Shown one piece after another: positions 2,903 through 14,662 of a stretch of 15,199 nucleotides of DNA. The notes beneath the pieces were generated by a model, which searched no databases, had not been told where the DNA came from, and saw only the letters and a program-made list of their open reading frames with translations. The number at the start of each line of letters is the position of its first letter. The first letter of the stretch is position 1. The position numbers and the translations under genes are program-made. Source of the DNA: Cyanobacteriota bacterium (lineage in GTDB: Bacteria > Cyanobacteriota > Cyanobacteriia > PCC-6307 > Cyanobiaceae); NCBI GenBank assembly GCA_026389255.1, contig JAPLIF010000288.1:1-15199 (forward strand), in the 5' to 3' direction.

Positions 2903-4321
2903 ATGGTCGCCAGCGCTCCCCTTGCCGGCTCTGCAGACGGCTCCTTGGCCGAAACTCCCATTGAGAACCTGGTGATCGTCGGTTCGGGTCCCGCCGGCTA
3001 TACCGCTGCCATTTATGCCGCTAGGGCGAACCTGGCTCCCTTGCTGATCACCGGTTTCCAACGGGGTGGTATCCCGGGGGGCCAGCTGATGACGACCACC
3101 CACGTCGAGAATTATCCCGGCTTCCCCGATGGCATCCTGGGCCCCGAGCTGATGGACCGCTGCAAAGCCCAGGCCCTGCGCTGGGGAACCAAGCTCGTGG
3201 AAGCCGATGCGGAGTCCCTCGACCTGTCCGCCCATCCCTATCGGCTGGTCACATCGGAAGGGGAAACCATCGTGACCCATTCGGTCATCCTGGCCACGGG
3301 GGCTAGTGCCAATCGCCTCGGAATTAACCAAGAGGAGCGCTTCTGGAGCCGGGGCATCAGTGCCTGTGCCATCTGTGACGGAGCCACCCCCCAGTTTCGC
3401 AAGGAGCAGCTGGCCGTGGTCGGTGGTGGCGATTCGGCCTGTGAGGAGGCGGTCTATCTGACCAAATACGGCAGCCAGGTGCACCTGATCGTGCGGAGTG
3501 ACACCCTGCGCGCCAGTGCCGCCATGGCGGATCGGGTCCTGGCCAACCCTGCCATCCGGGTGCACTGGAACCGGGAGGTGCTGGAAGCCTTGGGCGAGGA
3601 CTGGCTGAGGGCCATCCGCCTGCGGGACCGGAGCACGGGGGCCACCGAAGAACTAGACGTCAGGGGGCTGTTCTATGCCATTGGCCACACCCCCAACACC
3701 GATTTGGTGCAGGGCCAACTTGATCTCGACGAACGGGGCTATCTCGTCACCCGGACCGGCCGCCCCGAAACCAGCCTGGAGGGCGTCTTTGCCGCCGGTG
3801 ATGTGGCCGATTCTGAATGGCGCCAGGGAATCACCGCCGCCGGCAGCGGCTGCCAGGCGGCCCTCGCCGCCGAACGCTGGTTGAGTCACCATCAACTGGC
3901 CCGTCCGGTGGAGCGGCTGAGCATCGAACCGGAACTAGCCGGCGAAACCCAACCAACCGCCACCAGCGATGCTGACAATTTTGATGCCGCCACCCTATGG
4001 CAAAAAGGGGGCTATGCCCTGCGCAAGCTCTATCACGACTCCAAAAAGCCGCTGCTGGTGGTTTACACCTCCCCCAGCTGCGGCCCCTGTCATGTGCTGA
4101 AGCCCCAGTTGAAGCGCGTCCTGAACGAACTCGAAGGACGGGCCCTAGGGGTGGAGATCGACATCGAGGCGGACCAAGAGATCGCCCAACAAGCCGGCGT
4201 CTCGGGCACCCCAACCGTGCAGCTTTTTTTCAACAAACAACTCCAGCAGCAATGGCAAGGAGTGAAGCAGCGCAGTGAATTTAAAACGGCCATCGAAGCG
4301 TTGGGTTCCCCGCGACCCTGA
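2903..4321 (+). CDS. ntrC: NADPH-dependent thioredoxin reductase fused to thioredoxin (NTRC)
   Basis: A 472-residue bifunctional flavoprotein. Residues 21-330 are a low-molecular-weight thioredoxin reductase: FAD-binding GSGPAG at 27-32, redox-active CAIC at 155-158, NADPH-binding GGGDSAC at 174-180, and the second FAD motif GVFAAGDV at 294-301. After a linker of about 35 residues comes a complete thioredoxin domain (about 360-470) with active site CGPC at 393-396 and the cis-Pro loop GTPT at 435-438. In cyanobacteria and chloroplasts NTRC passes electrons from NADPH to 2-Cys peroxiredoxins and other thioredoxin targets. All catalytic cysteines are present and the length is normal. ATG 2903 follows an AAGGA ribosome site at unusually short spacing. 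The symbol is used for the plant-type NTRC, not the nitrogen regulator NtrC. It is convergent with infA. Confidence 0.95.
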   Translation: MVASAPLAGSADGSLAETPIENLVIVGSGPAGYTAAIYAARANLAPLLITGFQRGGIPGGQLMTTTHVENYPGFPDGILGPELMDRCKAQALRWGTKLVEADAESLDLSAHPYRLVTSEGETIVTHSVILATGASANRLGINQEERFWSRGISACAICDGATPQFRKEQLAVVGGGDSACEEAVYLTKYGSQVHLIVRSDTLRASAAMADRVLANPAIRVHWNREVLEALGEDWLRAIRLRDRSTGATEELDVRGLFYAIGHTPNTDLVQGQLDLDERGYLVTRTGRPETSLEGVFAAGDVADSEWRQGITAAGSGCQAALAAERWLSHHQLARPVERLSIEPELAGETQPTATSDADNFDAATLWQKGGYALRKLYHDSKKPLLVVYTSPSCGPCHVLKPQLKRVLNELEGRALGVEIDIEADQEIAQQAGVSGTPTVQLFFNKQLQQQWQGVKQRSEFKTAIEALGSPRP

Positions 4322-6984: not shown

Positions 6985-8627
6985 TCAGAACAGTTCTACG
7001 GCCGCCTGCTCGGACCGGAGTCCCCCCAACATCCCTCGCCGCCGGGTCGACTCACCGCAGCTGCTGGGGGTGGGAAATATCTTGCCGGGATTGGCCAACC
7101 CTTGCGGGTCAAAGGCCTGGCGCACCAAGGTCATGGTGGCCAAGTCATCGGGCGCGAACATCCAGTCGAGGTAACAGCGCTTGTCGCTGCCGACCCCATG
7201 CTCGCCCGTGATGCTGCCGCCGGCCTCGATGCAGAGCCGCAGGATGTCGGCCCCCAACTCCTGGACGCGCCTAGTGACATCGGGCTCGTCGGCCCGATAA
7301 AGGATCAGGGGATGGAGATTGCCGTCGCCGGCATGGAACACATTGGCCACCGGCAGGCCGTACTGGCGGCCCAAAGCTTCGATGGCGGCCAGAACCCGCG
7401 GCAGGGCACTGCGGGGCACGACACCATCTTGGACGTAATAGGTCGGTGTGATCCGACCGACGGCAGCGAAGGCGGACTTGCGGCCCTTCCAGAGCAGGGC
7501 GCGTTCGTCGGGGTCGGTGGCGCGGCGCACGGTGCGGGCCCCAGCTTCAAGGCAGAGGCTTTCGGCGATGTTCATGGCGGCAGCTACCTCCCCTGCCTGG
7601 CCATCCAGTTCGATCAACAAAACTGCGGCTGCATCCCGGGGGTATTCGTCGAAGCCAAAGAGATCATTGACGGCATTGATGGTGAAGTTGTCCATGATTT
7701 CCATACCGGCTGGCAACACCCCCGCCGCCGTGACCTTCCGCACCGCCTCACCGGCGGCCTCCATGGCGGCGAAATCCGCCAACAGCTGGCAATGCCCAAG
7801 GTGCCCTCACTGCCAATGAACACACCGCGCAGATCCAGCTCCGGGGTTTCGGCCAGACCGCTGCCCAACCGGGTGACGCTGCCATCGGGCAGCACCACCT
7901 CCAGTTCGAGCACATGGTTGCTGGTGACGCCATATTTGAGACAGTGCACACCGCCGGAATTTTCAGCGACGTTGCCGCCGATGCTGCAGACCACCTGACT
8001 GGAGGGATCCGGGGCGTAGTAATACCCCTCACCGGAGACGGCCCGGGTCACCCAGCTGTTGATCACCCCGGGCTGCACGGTGATGCGGCGGTTGGCCAGG
8101 TCCAGATCCAGGATCGAGCGCATGCGGCTGGTGGCGATCACCAGGGACGGGGTTTCGGCCACGGCTCCCCCCGAAAGGCCCGTGCCACTCCCCCGAGCCA
8201 CAAAAGGCACCCCCTGTTGGTGGCACAGACGGACCAGGGCGGCTACCTGGTCGGTGGTTTCCGGCAACACCACCAGGGGCGGCTGGTGGCGGTGCAGGGT
8301 GAGGCCGTCGCAGTCGTAGGCCAGCAGTTCCTGGCGGGCCGCCACCACGCCCCGGGCCGGCAGGATGGCGCGGCACTGGCGCTCGATGGCGGGCCAATCG
8401 ATCGGGGGCCGGGGCGCTGGGGCGGGGCTGGGGGAATCGATGGGGCTGGTGGCGGTGGCGGGCGACGGGCTGGGCGCAAGCGAGGACGTGGAGGTGGCAC
8501 CTGGCCCCTGGAGGGCGACCGCGCCGTCGGCGGGGGAGGCGGCTGTACCCGGTTGGCTGACCGGATGGTCGCCCAATTCGATGCCCGGTTCGGTGCTCGG
8601 AGCAGGCGTCACGGCGAAAAAAGACAT
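6985..8627 (-). pseudogene. glcD: GlcD-like FAD-linked oxidase, frameshifted by a short internal deletion
   Basis: Two frames together give one VAO/GlcD-type flavoprotein, the glycolate dehydrogenase subunit of photorespiration (D-lactate dehydrogenase is the alternative). The first, from ATG 8627, carries the FAD-binding motifs VARGSGTGLSGG and GGNVAENSGGVHCLKYG and ends its homology at GSEGTLGIA near 7788. The second, read from about 7785 to the stop at 6985, resumes at LLADF and holds the C-terminal motifs VFHAGDGNLHP and GEHGVG. E. coli GlcD has 18 residues between TLG and LLASF; here only 8 bases remain, so about 46 bases are missing and the frame shifts. The first frame then runs out of homology and stops at 7614. 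Residues 25-75 are a Pro/Ala/Ser-rich N-terminal extension. A pseudogene, or an assembly fault, is most likely. Confidence 0.85.
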
Positions 8628-8786: not shown

Positions 8787-9992
8787 ATGACCAGCCCGAT
8801 GACCAGGCCCCAGCCCCCTGCGCCTCCAGGCCTCCCCTCCACCCAGAGCGGCCATGGTCCCGGCCTACCGCCAGTCCTGCTCCAGCATCCCGGGGCCGCA
8901 GCGCATCCCCGCCGTTGTGGGTGGATTGCTGGGTTGCGTTGCGTTCAGCGTTCGGCGTGGCGGTGGATGCTGCTGCTGGCCACCGCCCTGCTGCTGCTGC
9001 TGCCTCTGATGCCACCCGGAACCGCCGCCGCTGGCCAGCCTGCCAACACCCTTTCAGCCCCGGCCATGGCGGGAGCCGTGGGCCCCGAACAACTTCGCCT
9101 CGGCGCCTACCTCACCGGCCTGGGGGATTTCGATCCAGCCAGAAAAAGTTTTAGCGCCTCCTTCTGGGTCTGGACCGTCGGCCCCCAGGACGGGGCGAAG
9201 TCCCTGAGCCAGCTCGAATTCCCCAATGCGATCAAGGTCGAGAGCCCCAATGAGGTGCAGGAGGCGACACCCCAAGGGATCTGGTCCCAGCGCAAGATCG
9301 TGGGGAGTTTCCGCCATGGCTGGGACCTGCGCCGCTTTCCCTTCGATCGCCAGCTGCTGCGAATCGAGATGGAGGAAGCAGAACGGGAAATTGCCAGAGT
9401 GACCTACGTGCCGGATCCGGCCAACTCGTCGTTCGATCCTGAACTGAGCCTGAGCGGCTGGCGCATCCTGTCCACCCAGCTGCTGACCGGCAGCAAGCAA
9501 TACCCCACCAGTTTCGGCGACCCACGCCTGCCTCCCGGCTCCCCCAGTGCCTACGCCCGGGCCGAACTGCGGGTTCTGTTGGAACGAACAGACCGCAGCG
9601 GCTTTTGGAAGCTCACGGTGGGCGCCTTCGCCGCCGCCCTGATGGCCCTGGCCTCCTACGGGCTGCGGGTCGACCAGGCTGCCGCCCTCAGCCCCCGCTT
9701 CGGCCTGCTAGCCGGTTCGGCCTTCGCTGCCGTGATCAGCCTGCGCAGTGCAGCTAGCGAACTGGGGGCTTCCGGCTACACCACCCTGATCGACACGGTG
9801 CATGGGGCGGTGCTGCTCTACATCCTGATGGCCACAGCGGCGGGGGTGGTGGCCTGGCGGGGCTTCCTGCGTCACGGCGATGTCGCCCGCGTCCAGCGCC
9901 TCGAAAGGCGGGTGGCGGGCTTCTCCACGCTCCTCTTCGCTGCCCTGATCCTGGGCCTGGTACTGGGCGCGATAGCCGGCCAGCTCCCATGA
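8787..9992 (+). CDS. Divergent pentameric ligand-gated ion channel (Cys-loop family) homologue
   Basis: 401 residues from ATG 8787. A hydrophobic stretch with preceding arginines (about 56-82, ending GTAAA) looks like a signal peptide; a start closer to it (ATG 8967) is possible. The extracellular domain shows the pLGIC hallmark [18 protein letters not shown] at 179-196, very close to the ELIC segment DFRLFPFDRQ. Four hydrophobic segments follow: M1 about 273-293, M2 about 304-322, M3 about 334-357, M4 about 378-398. TTLID at 332-336 before M3 matches ELIC TTVID. Prokaryotic members lack the Cys-loop disulfide, as here. Ligand and ion selectivity are unknown, and M1 lacks the usual proline. 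The last 4 bases overlap the hemL frame (ATGA). It is divergent from the glcD remnant. Confidence 0.78.
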
Positions 9993-11431
9993 AGCCGCCA
10001 AGTCGCCCCCATCTTCTCCAACGAAATCTCAGCCGATCCGCCAGTGGGTGCGCCGTTGGGTCAGGATGGATCACGCTTGTCAGCCCTCCGTCCGCGGATC
10101 CTGTCTTGTCGGCAACTCCATCAGCGCCCGTTTCGACTCCTGTGTTCAACACCACCCGCTCCCAGGAGATCTTCGCTGCCGCCCAGCACCTGATGCCCGG
10201 CGGCGTGAGTTCGCCCGTCCGGGCGTTCCGCTCGGTGGGGGGCCATCCCATTGTGTTCGATCGCGTCAGCGGCGCCTATGCCTGGGACGTGGATGGCAAC
10301 CGCTACATCGATTACGTCGGCAGCTGGGGCCCGGCCATCTGCGGCCATGCCCATCCCGATGTGATTGCGGCCCTGCACCAAGCCCTGGACAAGGGCACCA
10401 GCTTCGGGGCCCCCTGCGAACTGGAAAACCAACTGGCCACCATGGTCATCGAGGCGGTGCCCTCGGTGGAAATGGTCCGCTTCGTCAACTCAGGCACGGA
10501 AGCCTGTATGTCGGTGCTGAGGCTGATGCGGGCCTTCACCGGACGAGAGAAACTGATCAAATTTGAGGGCTGTTACCACGGCCATGCCGACATGTTCCTG
10601 GTCAAGGCCGGCTCGGGGGTCGCCACCCTGGGCCTGCCCGATTCCCCCGGTGTGCCCCGTTCGGTGACGGCCAACACCCTGACGGCGCCCTACAACTGCC
10701 TGGAATCAGTGAAGGAGCTGTTTGCAGCCAACCCCGGCGAAATTGCCGGGGTGATTGTGGAGCCGGTGGTGGGCAATGCCGGTTTCATCCCCCCGGAACC
10801 CGGTTTCCTGGAGGGCCTGCGGGAACTGACGCGGGAACACGGTGCGCTGCTGGTCTTTGATGAAGTGATGACCGGCTTCCGCATCAGCTACGGAGGGGCC
10901 CAGGCGAAATTTGGCGTCAAGCCAGACTTGACCACCATGGGCAAGGTGATTGGCGGCGGTCTGCCGGTGGGGGCCTACGGCGGCAGGTCCGACATCATGG
11001 CCATGGTGGCCCCGGCCGGCCCCATGTATCAGGCCGGCACCCTCAGCGGCAATCCCCTGGCCATGACCGCCGGCATTAAAACCCTGGAACTGCTTAAGCA
11101 GCCCGGCACCTACGAACGGCTGGAAGCGATCACCCGCCGTCTAAGTGACGGCATCCAGGAGGCGGCCATGGCCGCCGGTGTGCCGATCACCGGCAGCCAC
11201 ATCAGCGCCATGTTCGGCTTCTTCCTCTGCCCCGGCCCCGTGCGCAACTTTGAAGAGGCCAAGGCCACGGACAGCGAACGCTTCAGCCGCCTGCACCGGG
11301 CCATGCTGGAGCGAGGCATCTATCTAGCCCCTAGCTCCTATGAAGCAGGTTTCACGTCTCTAGCCCACAGCGATGCCGACATTGACGACACCTTGATGGC
11401 CTTTCGCGAAGCCTTAATGGCTATCGCCTGA
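9989..11431 (+). CDS. hemL: Glutamate-1-semialdehyde 2,1-aminomutase
   Basis: A PLP-dependent class III aminotransferase-fold enzyme that turns glutamate-1-semialdehyde into 5-aminolevulinate, the first tetrapyrrole precursor for chlorophyll, haem and phycobilins. It is near-identical in pattern to cyanobacterial Hem[14 protein letters not shown] at 69-80, NSGTEA at 167-172, DEVMTGFR at 291-298, and the PLP lysine in [10 protein letters not shown] (Lys319). The start is uncertain. ATG 9989 overlaps the channel gene by 4 bases but adds about 50 residues absent from the family (about 430 residues). TTG 10106 (441 residues) or GTG 10142 (429 residues, beginning just before [10 protein letters not shown]) fit the family better. 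None has a strong ribosome site. The C-terminus is complete, and the gene is convergent with the second channel gene, 20 bp away. Confidence 0.96.
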
Positions 11432-11451
11432 ATCCGGCCTGAAAAAGTTCA

Positions 11452-12621
11452 TTAAAAAAACCAGGCAAAAGGAATAAGCGAAATTAGTACGATTATGGCA
11501 ATGATCTGGATTTTTTTATCAATAGCATTGATCGCTATCTCCGCATCGACTTTACGGTCTTCATCGGCATTGTTATAACGATTAGTGGACCAACAAAAAA
11601 GAACAAATACAGCGATTGAAATAAAATAGGCGTAGAGATAGAGCCAGTCAAGGAAGCTAAGATAGCTCAAGCAAGGCAGATTTGCCTGGTAGCCTTGCTG
11701 AAGGAAGATAAGAGTCAATAGGGCAGTTGTGGGAATGGCCAGTCGCACATCCCCCATGGCTGCGGGCAGAGACGGGGAAACCATAACAATGCCAATGATG
11801 ACCAAAAGTGGCAAAATGAATTGGGCTAGGGCCGCAACAAAATTAGATTTATAAACCAAATTAAAATTTACCGAATTAAAAGCTGAGAGGTCGCCAACAC
11901 CAAAAGTGGTATTGTATTGATGCAAAAAGGGTTCAACGGTGACCGCATTCAAATCATATCCATTGATATCGGCAAACTGACCCACCATCATTTTGGCAAC
12001 CTCAGGCTCGGGCTTCAGAGCAACACAGGGGGGCCCCGATGGATAGCAGGAAAGACTATCTGGCTTGGCTTCCACCGTCAGCGGCAACACAATATGGACG
12101 AATGGATAGCGGCGCAGATCTAAATCATTCACATAGAAGCGACCCGAAAAACGAACCAATTGGTAATAACGACCCTCCTTAGCCATGTACAAAGGCTCAG
12201 TCGTATCGAGGGTCTCGGTCAGATTTGTTTCTTCGACAACATTGGTAAACTCGACAATCTGTTCCAAGGGTATTTTATCAGCTTTAATAATTTTATCAAT
12301 CGCTTCAGGCCACTTCAGCCAATACCAACCCTCCATCCAATAGACCTTATCCTTGAGGGAAAGCTGATGGACATTTTCAATGTGAACACCTAGATCTATA
12401 GTCCGCTAGGGTGTGGTGTCCACTGATGGTGTCTGCGTGGCATGATTCATCAACTGACGATTAATTGAAACATATTGGCCGCCATGGATTCGGCTTGATT
12501 TCAAAAACGAAGGTGCACGCATGGATCCATGCAGGCCATTGCGCATTCCGAAAAGAATCAGCACTGTGAGTGCAAAGGCCAAAACGGCCAACAAGTAGCC
12601 AACCAGTTTCGAGCGCCGCAT
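11452..12621 (-). pseudogene. Second pLGIC homologue, interrupted by an in-frame amber codon
   Basis: One continuous frame from ATG 12621 (the frame is open from TTG 12648) to 11452, broken only by TAG at 12408-12406 (codon 72). Before the stop lies an N-terminal membrane anchor (about residues 6-25) and a linker. After it comes the first extracellular strand, GVHIENVHQLSLKDKVYW, then EGWYWLKWPE, the DLRRYPF motif at 168-174, M1 with proline (about 261-283), M2 RLAIPTTALLTLIFLQ (about 293-308), LP and a conserved Asp before M3 (about 320-345), and M4 (about 371-389). Homology clearly spans the stop. Without readthrough, initiation at ATG 12336 would give 294 residues lacking the first strand. 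The gene is much AT-richer than hemL or the other channel, suggesting transfer. It follows the truncated AraC paralogue by 86 bp. Confidence 0.78.
12406..12408 (-). other. In-frame TAG inside the channel reading frame
   Basis: The + strand CTA here reads as TAG on the - strand. It falls between the linker, which ends SVDTTP, and RTIDLGVHIEN, the first strand of the ligand-binding domain. Both sides are in the same frame and belong to one protein by homology. No suppressor context or recoding element was recognised. Confidence 0.8.
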
Positions 12622-12707: not shown

Positions 12708-13490
12708 CTAGACCGACGTTTGCGTAGGGGATTGGGCCAGCCTGTTGTCAGCCTTGCGGCGCAGCAAAGCCGAGGGACGAATGCCATAGCGAGCCACAAA
12801 GTCGCGGCTGCCACCGTCCAGGAGCTGGGGCACCAGCAACATGGCCAGCAGCCTGAGGATGAGATCGTCGAGGCGCATCATCGAATGCACGCTGCAGGCA
12901 CTGGCCATGGCTGAGTTGATCAGCGCCAGGGTGCTGATCAACAATTGGTGCAGATGCTCGCGGCGGGGATCCTGCCTACGACTGAGCAAGGCGGGCTGGT
13001 TGATGGCCTCCTCCAAGGCCTGGCAACAGGCGTCTGGACCAGCAATGGCGAGGGCCACCGACGCCAGGGAATCGGGGGGAAAGCTGATCACCACCCCGGA
13101 GGTGAACGTGTTGGTGACCCTCAGAAGGGCGTGGCGGGCCGGAATGAAAAAGGCCGAGGTGCGGCTGTGGAACGTCTGGCCACCGATGGCATAGGTATTG
13201 ACACCAGCCACGTAAGGGAGGATCAACTGGGCTTGCTTGCCCCCTTGAATCTCCACTTGCCCATCAACGGCAGAGCCCCAGGTGGCGAGCAGGGTGATTG
13301 GGCCCAGATGGATGCCACCAGAATGGTTTTGAAAGGCTTTGGGCTCAGAGTGGGTATCCCAATGGCAAATCCGAACCGGCAAAAAACTCTGGAGTGCGGT
13401 TCCGTGGTCAACAGGATCAACGCACTGCTGAGAACTAGCGGGAAGATTAAGGAATGGAAAGTGAGCTGGTGGCTCTTTGAGCTGATTCAT
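12708..13490 (-). CDS. AraC-family paralogue lacking the helix-turn-helix core
   Basis: A 260-residue protein from ATG 13490. Residues 60-225 align throughout with the neighbouring AraC regulator: LGPITLLATWGSAVDGQVE against LGDLTLLSTWGSSIDGLVE, then ILPYVAG, FIPARH, SGVVISF, AIAGP, HLHQLLISTLALI, MMRLDDLI and MLLVPQL. Just after MLLVPQLLDGG it jumps to SRDFVARYGIRPS (228-240), which aligns with the last helix of the neighbour's HTH domain, SRDFLKRFGQRPS. About 98 residues, nearly the whole DNA-binding domain, are gone, yet the frame stays open to a unique tail of about 20 residues. It may be a decaying copy, or a sensor domain able to form inactive mixed dimers with its neighbour. It lies 58 bp after the intact paralogue. 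Confidence 0.8.
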   Translation of the reverse strand: MNQLKEPPAHFPFLNLPASSQQCVDPVDHGTALQSFLPVRICHWDTHSEPKAFQNHSGGIHLGPITLLATWGSAVDGQVEIQGGKQAQLILPYVAGVNTYAIGGQTFHSRTSAFFIPARHALLRVTNTFTSGVVISFPPDSLASVALAIAGPDACCQALEEAINQPALLSRRQDPRREHLHQLLISTLALINSAMASACSVHSMMRLDDLILRLLAMLLVPQLLDGGSRDFVARYGIRPSALLRRKADNRLAQSPTQTSV

Positions 13491-13548: not shown

Positions 13549-14616
13549 CTAAATCACCGGGCTCTGGCGGCGCACCTTGGAGGGCCGCTGGCCAAAACGT
13601 TTCAAAAAATCACGGCTGAATGAGGATTGGGAAAGATAGCCGCAGGACTGGGCCACCTGGCTAAGGCCGAGCTGCCCGCCGGACTCCCTCAGCAGGCGCA
13701 TGGCTTTATCGAGGCGCTGCTGCCGCAGCCACTGCATCGGCCCACAGCCGAAATGTTGTTTAAAGGTGTACTGGAGCGAGCGGCGGCCATAGCAGCTGCG
13801 CTGCTCCAGGTCGGTGAGGCTGATGGGTTGGTCGAGGTGGGCCATGGCCCAATCGACCAAATCCCCATGGGGAAAACTGCCGGAGACTAGGAAGGAAGGG
13901 CTGGATAGTGGGCCGGTCTGGAAGAGCTTGGGGACCAGCAGCATCACCATCAACCGTTTGATCAGGTCATCCAGTCGCATCATCGTGTTGACATCTCCCA
14001 GGGCCTGCATGGCGCGATCGATCAGGGCCAGGGTCTGCATCAACAGATCATGCAGATGCTGGCGGCTTGCGTCGCTGCGGCGCCCCAGTATGCCCGGCTG
14101 GTCCAAAACCGCCGTGAAGGAGAGGGAATCGAAGGTGGGGCCGGCGATGGCGGCGGCCACGGGCAGCAAGGTTTCAGGATTGAAGCTAAAGATCACACCT
14201 GAGCAAAGGGTGCAACGCAGATGGATGCGCAATTGATGGGCTGGGATATAGAGCGAGTAATCGCGAAACACATAGGTCTTGGCGTCTATCTTGAAGCTAT
14301 TCGTACCGGCCAGATAGGGCAGAATCCACTGGGCCTCGGATTTCTGCTCGACGAGCCCGTCGATGGAGGATCCCCAAGTGGATAACAGGGTGAGGTCGCC
14401 GAGACGAACAATGCCGGATTGATTATAATATGTTTCGCTCTCCGGACCCAGATCCCAGGCCCAGACGTGCAAGGGTAAATATTTGCCTAAAATTCCGCCG
14501 AAGGCCTCAGCTTGCTCTGGCATGAGCGACGCGCCAGGCAGGCTCAGAAAAGGCAGGTTGGTTGGACTTGAACTCTGCTGCGGACTCTGGGGTAGTGAAT
14601 TGGGCCCGGAAAGCAT
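13549..14616 (-). CDS. AraC-family transcriptional regulator, intact
   Basis: 355 residues from ATG 14616 (a TTG six codons upstream is open but less likely). The N-terminal 240 residues are a sensor domain not tied to a known ligand; strands around 70-160 suggest a cupin-like barrel, followed by helices with HLHDLLMQTLALID and MMRLDDLIKRLMVMLLVP. The C-terminal AraC domain is complete: first HTH about 265-290 (ISLTDLEQRSCYGRRSLQYTFKQHFG region), second HTH about 316-346 (LSQVAQSCGYLSQSSFSRDF, then LKRFGQRPS). It should bind DNA as a dimer near target promoters. It heads a - strand run with its truncated paralogue and the second channel gene, and is divergent from the sulfatase. These neighbours are its likeliest targets, by context only. 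Confidence 0.92.
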   Translation of the reverse strand: MLSGPNSLPQSPQQSSSPTNLPFLSLPGASLMPEQAEAFGGILGKYLPLHVWAWDLGPESETYYNQSGIVRLGDLTLLSTWGSSIDGLVEQKSEAQWILPYLAGTNSFKIDAKTYVFRDYSLYIPAHQLRIHLRCTLCSGVIFSFNPETLLPVAAAIAGPTFDSLSFTAVLDQPGILGRRSDASRQHLHDLLMQTLALIDRAMQALGDVNTMMRLDDLIKRLMVMLLVPKLFQTGPLSSPSFLVSGSFPHGDLVDWAMAHLDQPISLTDLEQRSCYGRRSLQYTFKQHFGCGPMQWLRQQRLDKAMRLLRESGGQLGLSQVAQSCGYLSQSSFSRDFLKRFGQRPSKVRRQSPVI

Positions 14617-14632
14617 CAACAACAAAAAGACC

Positions 14633-14662
14633 AATTCGCAAGTTAGCCGGTCTTAGCGAATT
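14633..14662. promoter_or_regulatory. Inverted repeat AATTCGC / GCGAATT upstream of araC
   Basis: Perfect 7-bp arms at 14633-14639 and 14656-14662 are separated by 16 bases. The outer flanks also mirror each other loosely (CAACAA on the left from 14617, TTGTTG on the right). The site lies just upstream of the AraC start in the divergent promoter region, a natural place for autoregulation. No binding protein can be assigned. Confidence 0.4.

Follow-up and report, generated by a model that had tools for sequence, protein, structure and literature searches.

Two homologues of pentameric ligand-gated ion channels flank hemL

Do the two genes on either side of hemL at a locus of a freshwater picocyanobacterium (Cyanobiaceae) both encode pentameric ligand-gated ion channels (pLGICs), and does their position beside hemL mean anything? 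The locus lies on contig JAPLIF010000288.1 of assembly GCA_026389255.1 (G000; 2.10 Mb in 376 contigs, 78.8% complete), and the window analysed here is this entire contig of 15,199 nucleotides. We call the pLGIC homologue on the 5' side of hemL (plus strand) A and the one on its other side (minus strand) B. Taken together, the evidence makes it probable that A and B come from two long-separated clades and arrived independently beside hemL, that B is a broken copy, and that the lineage of A is sensory.

AlphaFold2 monomer models based on family alignments (55 rows for A, 58 for B) comprise a beta-sandwich and four helices in each case, which in A are C-terminal at residues 271-290, 298-326, 334-363 and 366-397; pLDDT in the A model drops below 50 at residues 1-8, 14-54 and 74-97. 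Foldseek and VIA-align match both proteins to solved pLGICs across the whole core, and sequence profile searches also place them with pLGICs. Structure prediction thus bears out the homology that the first-pass annotation had proposed, and A and B are, by predicted fold, members of the pLGIC superfamily. Three negative results weigh against this assignment. Neither protein scores above the curated cut-off of any Pfam or NCBIfam model (two A-type relatives match Neur_chan_LBD at E 0.006-0.009, below cut-off), ELIC-type chains, ranked below an unrelated top match, reached no better than E 0.14 in a single-sequence PDB search with A, and neither a ligand nor a current came to light for any of the close relatives.

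The two proteins had been described as unrelated-looking and as sharing little sequence apart from the fold signature. The latter is correct at 16% identity, yet their profiles align over 273 columns at 98.1% probability, so that A and B are better seen as remote homologues. The Pro-loop proline is conserved without exception in the two family alignments (DLRRFPFD in A, DLRRYPF in B), a feature that a superfamily survey defines as invariant (PMC4795631). Neither A nor B has Cys-loop cysteines around this loop, so the label "Cys-loop-type" should be dropped; B does carry an invariant C120/C127 pair located after the Pro-loop in its family alignment that might form a lineage-specific disulphide. 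Both genes show more silent than coding change.

Gene A is a single open frame of 401 aa that encodes four spans, as annotated initially. Its start is uncertain and more likely to lie near 8967 (giving 341 aa) than at 8787, because the 96% identical relative P0124 (341 aa) points there. Most listed relatives (46 of 54) measure 308-376 aa, and the close relative P0123 has 401 aa. A hydrophobic stretch following the putative start near 8967 looks, by eye, like a signal peptide.

Gene B is interrupted by an in-frame stop

On the minus strand, the frame of B from 12621 to 11452 has TAG as its codon 72, which separates the membrane anchor from the receptor. All 15 near relatives covering this place (P0003-P0017; 383-390 aa) have a sense codon there, with a residue that varies between them, which makes B a broken copy here and shows that intact B-type copies exist elsewhere. 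The stop excludes that this assembly carries B as a single intact gene, and the varying sense residue of the relatives rules out that TAG is read as an amino acid. Rescue by initiation at the internal Met of 12336 is likewise ruled out, since the product would be devoid of the anchor and the first strand: this Met belongs to the model's second strand, and no ATG, GTG or TTG occurs in the B frame between it and the TAG. What had been annotated as one gene at 11452-12621 does possess the DLRRYPF motif, the M2 segment (RLAIPTTALLTLIFLQ) and the four helices, but not as one reading frame, and the N-terminal anchor ascribed to it is found in a separate piece upstream of the stop. Given the in-frame stop in B, the proposal of two working channels is not supported either.

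Real decay of B and an assembly error both fit these data, and we lean towards decay. The alternative, that the organism has an intact B and that the TAG arose through misassembly or the mixing of strains, retains a sizeable share of our belief. There is only one stop in an otherwise open frame, and the dN/dS of B (around 0.11) is low on both sides of it, as is compatible with an error or with a break of very recent date. The assembly is, moreover, fragmented and incomplete, and the glcD-like FAD oxidase gene (FADox) beside A is out of frame compared with genome G019 through the lack of 46 bp, a non-triplet deletion that may be an artefact; this deletion and the B stop may both be mistakes made in assembling a metagenome bin. 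While these points weigh against a broken gene, AraC-like gene 1 near the TAG is ca. 294 bp shorter than its G019 counterpart and gives no helix-turn-helix (HTH) match, which fits real decay. Disrupted pLGIC remains also occur elsewhere, between dnaJ and hemB in G009 and G016, and P0018, which is 79% identical to B, is likewise called only from the equivalent internal Met (its upstream DNA is unseen).

A and B belong to separate clades and probably reached hemL independently

Our phylogeny has 96 rows after removal of rows below 250 aa and of six duplicate loci, and the A homologue of G035 is absent from it. A groups with sequences of G125, G019 and G172 (four rows), and the sister of this group is an 11-row clade of channels encoded near chemotaxis (che) genes, the two together forming a group of 15 rows (100/99). 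B groups with sequences of G019, G010, G001, G027, G037 and G031 (seven rows, 100/100). A and B are members of two long-separated prokaryotic pLGIC clades.

The gene between them is hemL by its match to the TIGR00713 equivalog (591 bits, cut-off 527), and it probably starts some 150 bp past the end of A, given that family models match from residue 54-58. We inspected the hemL loci of 23 of the 58 genomes in which hemL was found. FADox and hemL commonly adjoin: of the 22 loci that have both genes, two carry A between them (the window and G035), and another two carry other inserts there (kaiC and kaiB domains in G015, a further insert in G013). B follows hemL at two of the 23 loci, those of the window and of G019. 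Synonymous divergence is out of step with that of hemL for both channels (dS of 0.63 for B and 0.20 for hemL compared with G019; 0.38 for A and 0.72 for hemL compared with G035), showing that their histories are unlike that of hemL. A and B would thus have landed independently on two sides of hemL, where accessory genes come and go, and their pairing looks accidental. Two other loci speak against an accident. In G027, a che cluster with its channel lies just beyond FADox-hemL, which may be a further sign of gene uptake at this place or may hint weakly that the position has a meaning. The genome G036 has another pLGIC ca. 8.5 kb past hemL. In G019, the A homologue (L073:713-4707) lies among three transposase or integrase fragments.

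The difference in GC content between the two genes that was noted at first is real (0.678 for A and 0.449 for B, with 0.639 for hemL and 0.63 for the window). Low GC content is common to the B subclade and therefore not only a mark of recent arrival: six relatives range from 0.44 to 0.57, and the loci of all of them but G019, five in number, were computed at 0.595-0.71. The nearest named relative of the B locus is a metagenome-assembled genome labelled Synechococcus sp. UW140 (88%). The B-type channels of G037 (L065:1645-5379) and G031 (L159:8629-9555) each adjoin a TIR-domain gene, TIR-nSTAND1-WD40 in the former and TIR in the latter.

pLGICs are not rare in Cyanobiaceae, but the A and B pair is

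The presence of two such channels had been judged unusual for the group. Prokaryotic pLGICs are known, including from Synechococcus, as the superfamily survey documents (PMC4795631), and the B-family profile matches 60 of 201 Cyanobiaceae genomes (50 of the 130 of good quality), the A-family profile 28 (25 of 130). Single-sequence searches of 99 genomes gave B matches in 39 and A matches in 25. Several Cyanobiaceae genomes carry more than one pLGIC copy, though fragments raise the number of matches in some genomes; according to a 2004 survey, most bacteria with one member have just one (PMC549065). Among the 99 genomes, close A homologues (E <1e-90) occur in G000, G035 and G019 and close B homologues (E <1e-85) in G000, G019, G010, G001, G027, G037 and G031, so that both co-occur in G000 and G019 only, the latter with just B at hemL. 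The rarity lies in this pair and not in pLGICs as such.

Two tblastn scans of viral contigs found no relative and thus no support for carriage by phages. In plasmids B had no match, and A matched 10 records at <60% identity (eight of Azospirillum, two of Streptomyces). In L145 and L146, and also in G003, G026 and G038, channel matches lie inside frames of 801-897 aa with extra sequence, and the extra stretch of L145, which was tested, has no Pfam match. A clade of channel-like proteins whose M2 region is shorter (L151-L156, L228-L230, L233, L234) is encoded beside a conserved protein in six of six tree rows and five further genomes; this partner has 355 aa in L152 and no Pfam match.

Chemotaxis genes accompany the sister clade of A

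Neighbouring genes were identified by tblastn at 109 loci from 74 genomes or records, with some loci being duplicates of one place. Chemotaxis genes lie near a pLGIC in 10 genomes, and each of the 11 tree rows of the che clade has one within 1.2 kb; CheR, CheW, MCP, hybrid CheA and CheB were confirmed by Pfam in G021. Across 42 genomes of the genus, the matching CheA occurs in exactly the eight that have a che-type channel (E 5e-38 to 4e-41), G007, G011, G015, G017, G021, G022, G027 and G029, of which G017 and G022 were called by E-values alone, outside the tree. The naive chance of this coincidence is 8.5e-9, a figure that ignores shared ancestry. In a sample of 292 genomes of the phylum, six of seven strong loci (E <1e-90, own excluded, four genomes) have a che gene in the 1.5-kb flank, with two of the seven (in G082) having been rows of the query alignment. 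Beyond cyanobacteria, an A-type channel on a plasmid of Azospirillum sp. B510 (L211:6782-11280) is followed 19 bp downstream by a CheW gene and then by an MCP gene. This is the one with che genes among the four inspected of the 10 A-matching plasmid regions: two Streptomyces regions have none, and the unannotated region of A. brasilense Sp7 has no match to the B510 CheW or MCP.

Several observations argue against extending this link to A or to all of its relatives. The window has FADox and hemL as neighbours of A and no che genes beside it, and no CheA of this type was found at 1e-60 in G000 (78.8% complete), G019 or G035. Four genomes (G066, G077, G084 and G098) encode a 53-54% CheA without any A-type channel at 1e-3 in single-sequence searches, and none of the 22 weaker loci kept from the phylum sample (L219-L240) has che genes in its 1.5-kb flank. 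A itself falls outside the che-linked clade, in the four-row sister group. The chemosensory role suggested at first for these channels is thus backed indirectly, by the gene context of the sister clade of A, and by nothing from the window itself. The role of the A lineage is most likely sensory, given the CheA/CheW/CheR/CheB/MCP cluster that accompanies its sister clade; for A, which is not beside one, this is an argument from kinship.

Each of A and (formerly) B would form a homopentamer in the inner membrane whose periplasmic beta-sandwich would bind a small solute and thereby open the central pore, so that an outside chemical signal would become an ion flux serving as signal. In the simplest model, the che-linked sisters would provide a ligand-gated input, or an output, of the chemosensory array. 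A bolder version, which we regard as tentative and rather doubtful, is that A-type channels include a pLGIC lineage dedicated to such arrays, in cyanobacteria and at one Azospirillum locus, in which the ion flux of the pore or the bound state feeds CheA-CheW-MCP-CheR-CheB and of which A of the window would be a free-standing offshoot. If true, it would give prokaryotic pLGICs a first testable role in vivo.

No publication that ties pLGICs to CheA/CheW clusters was among the matches listed (subscription papers not covered). A chemotaxis proposal for pLGICs has been made on the strength of Cache, MCP-N and PBP domains fused to them or encoded nearby, in a section of the paper that does not mention Che operons (PMC549065). 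At the time of the 2016 superfamily survey, the biological role of no microbial pLGIC was known (PMC4795631). The new element here is the gene context of the relatives, and its recurrence in che clusters, at the dnaJ-hemB slot and in PBP pairs makes the question of their role open to gene-deletion tests.

The predicted pores of A and B differ

Pore positions were read from the alignment of 96 family members and, for B, also from an ungapped alignment to a GABA-A type chain. B has G-D-V-R at -3' to 0', P at 4' and L at 9'. In A, S-P-R occupies -2' to 0', positions 2' and 6' are G, 9' is F and 16' is R. Both show the M2 signature of the superfamily, with R0' in each and L9' in B or F9' in A; frequencies of a basic residue at 0' and of Leu or Phe at 9' are given in the 2016 survey (PMC4795631). 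At the helix-bending place of M1, B has an invariant P and A an aligned G. Cation channels are marked by an acidic residue before 0', which in the 2004 account adjoins 0' as E-R/K (PMC549065) and in B is at -2'. Because this acid is kept at -2' before R0', our guess for intact B is that it passes cations; for A, which has no acid at that place (S-P-R), glycines at 2' and 6' and phenylalanine at 9', we would rather guess at an anion pore or one of poor selectivity.

A non-conducting A, a relative in fold that acts as a ligand-binding membrane sensor, would account for the glycine in place of the M1 proline, for G2', G6', F9' and R16' in the presumed pore and for the CheR/CheW/MCP genes adjoining the sister clade. 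We hold it to be unlikely, since A retains R0', a hydrophobic 9' residue and a YTTLID match between M2 and M3, and the 2004 survey permits P, G or S at the bending position of M1 (PMC549065). As a candidate channel, A has a pore signature unusual for a pLGIC, and none of the curated family models used recognises the protein.

The wider clade of B and the hemB locus

In 15 genomes, a pLGIC gene lies between dnaJ and hemB (the latter identified by Pfam ALAD), and the 14 of these present in the tree all fall into the 48-row superclade of B. Among 20 further hemB regions, 15 have dnaJ directly beside hemB and no channel, two have channel remains (G009 and G016), and dnaJ was not found in three. 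5-Aminolevulinate (ALA), which is made by HemL and used by HemB, resembles GABA and may act on GABA receptors (PMC9719963). That the hemL position is functional, with channels sensing ALA to report tetrapyrrole flux, is suggested by A and B flanking hemL and by the same-strand dnaJ-pLGIC-hemB order, with remains in two more genomes. It is attractive but very improbable, because both the dnaJ-hemB and FADox-hemL orders occur without a channel (so that few independent events lie behind the slot count), the hemL slot takes other inserts (G015, G013), the B relatives of G001, G027, G037 and G031 are at neither hemL nor hemB, and the pathway was chosen after the data were seen. In a third clade of pLGICs, a PBP1 gene lies near the channel gene in 21 genomes, and two of these proteins were confirmed as Peripla_BP_6.

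Relation to known channels

GLIC, the proton-gated channel of Gloeobacter, is like A and B prokaryotic, shares their whole-core fold and the lack of Cys-loop cysteines, and like B has an acidic residue before M2; identity is 14-18%, and unlike GLIC, A lacks the acidic pre-M2 residue and the M1 proline. The GABA-gated ELIC of Erwinia/Dickeya is among the best single-sequence PDB matches of B (E ~1e-3) and is not significant for A. Both A and B have E-F-x-N before the Pro-loop, similar to LEFINV of an ELIC-type chain, though phmmer sets the EFTN of B five residues off EFIN, so that the motif match is not established. Unlike GluCl, glycine and GABA-A receptors, A and B are bacterial and lack the Cys-loop cysteines, with A at mostly 13-15% identity to them. 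The bacterial pLGICs with sensor domains described by Tasneem et al. in 2004 (PMC549065) resemble relatives of our channels in having sensor genes as neighbours (PBP1 in 21 genomes), and neither A nor B has such a neighbour.

Gene map

Table 1. Features of the window and recurrent pLGIC loci in other genomes.
Feature	Position or loci	Strand	Basis
pLGIC A, longest open frame (401 aa)	8787..9992	+	translation, family model, structure matches
hemL frame (glutamate-1-semialdehyde aminomutase)	9989..11431	+ (strand of A)	family models
pLGIC B, receptor and channel part 3' of the stop (317 residues)	11452..12405	-	fold model
TAG splitting B, in frame	12406..12408	-	sense codon in relatives
N-terminal piece of B, membrane anchor and linker (71 codons)	12409..12621	-	homologous to start of intact relatives
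AraC-like gene 1, shortened, no HTH match	12708..13490	-	family models, comparison with G019
AraC-like gene 2, HTH_18 present	13549..14634	-	family models
glcD-like FAD oxidase (FADox), in two frames, with 46-bp deletion	6985-8627	-	family models, comparison with G019
A sister-clade channels beside CheR/CheW/MCP/CheA/CheB (various subsets)	L075-L082, L149, L150
dnaJ-pLGIC-hemB	L062, L084-L086, L090, L092-L094, L100, L101, L106, L107, L114, L161, L162	one strand
Third-clade pLGIC with PBP1	L089, L090, L118, L121-L128, L131-L133, L135-L138, L140, L143, L166, L167

Elsewhere in the window, a plus-strand gene at 2903-4321 encodes a thioredoxin reductase fused to thioredoxin, which we take to be NTRC.

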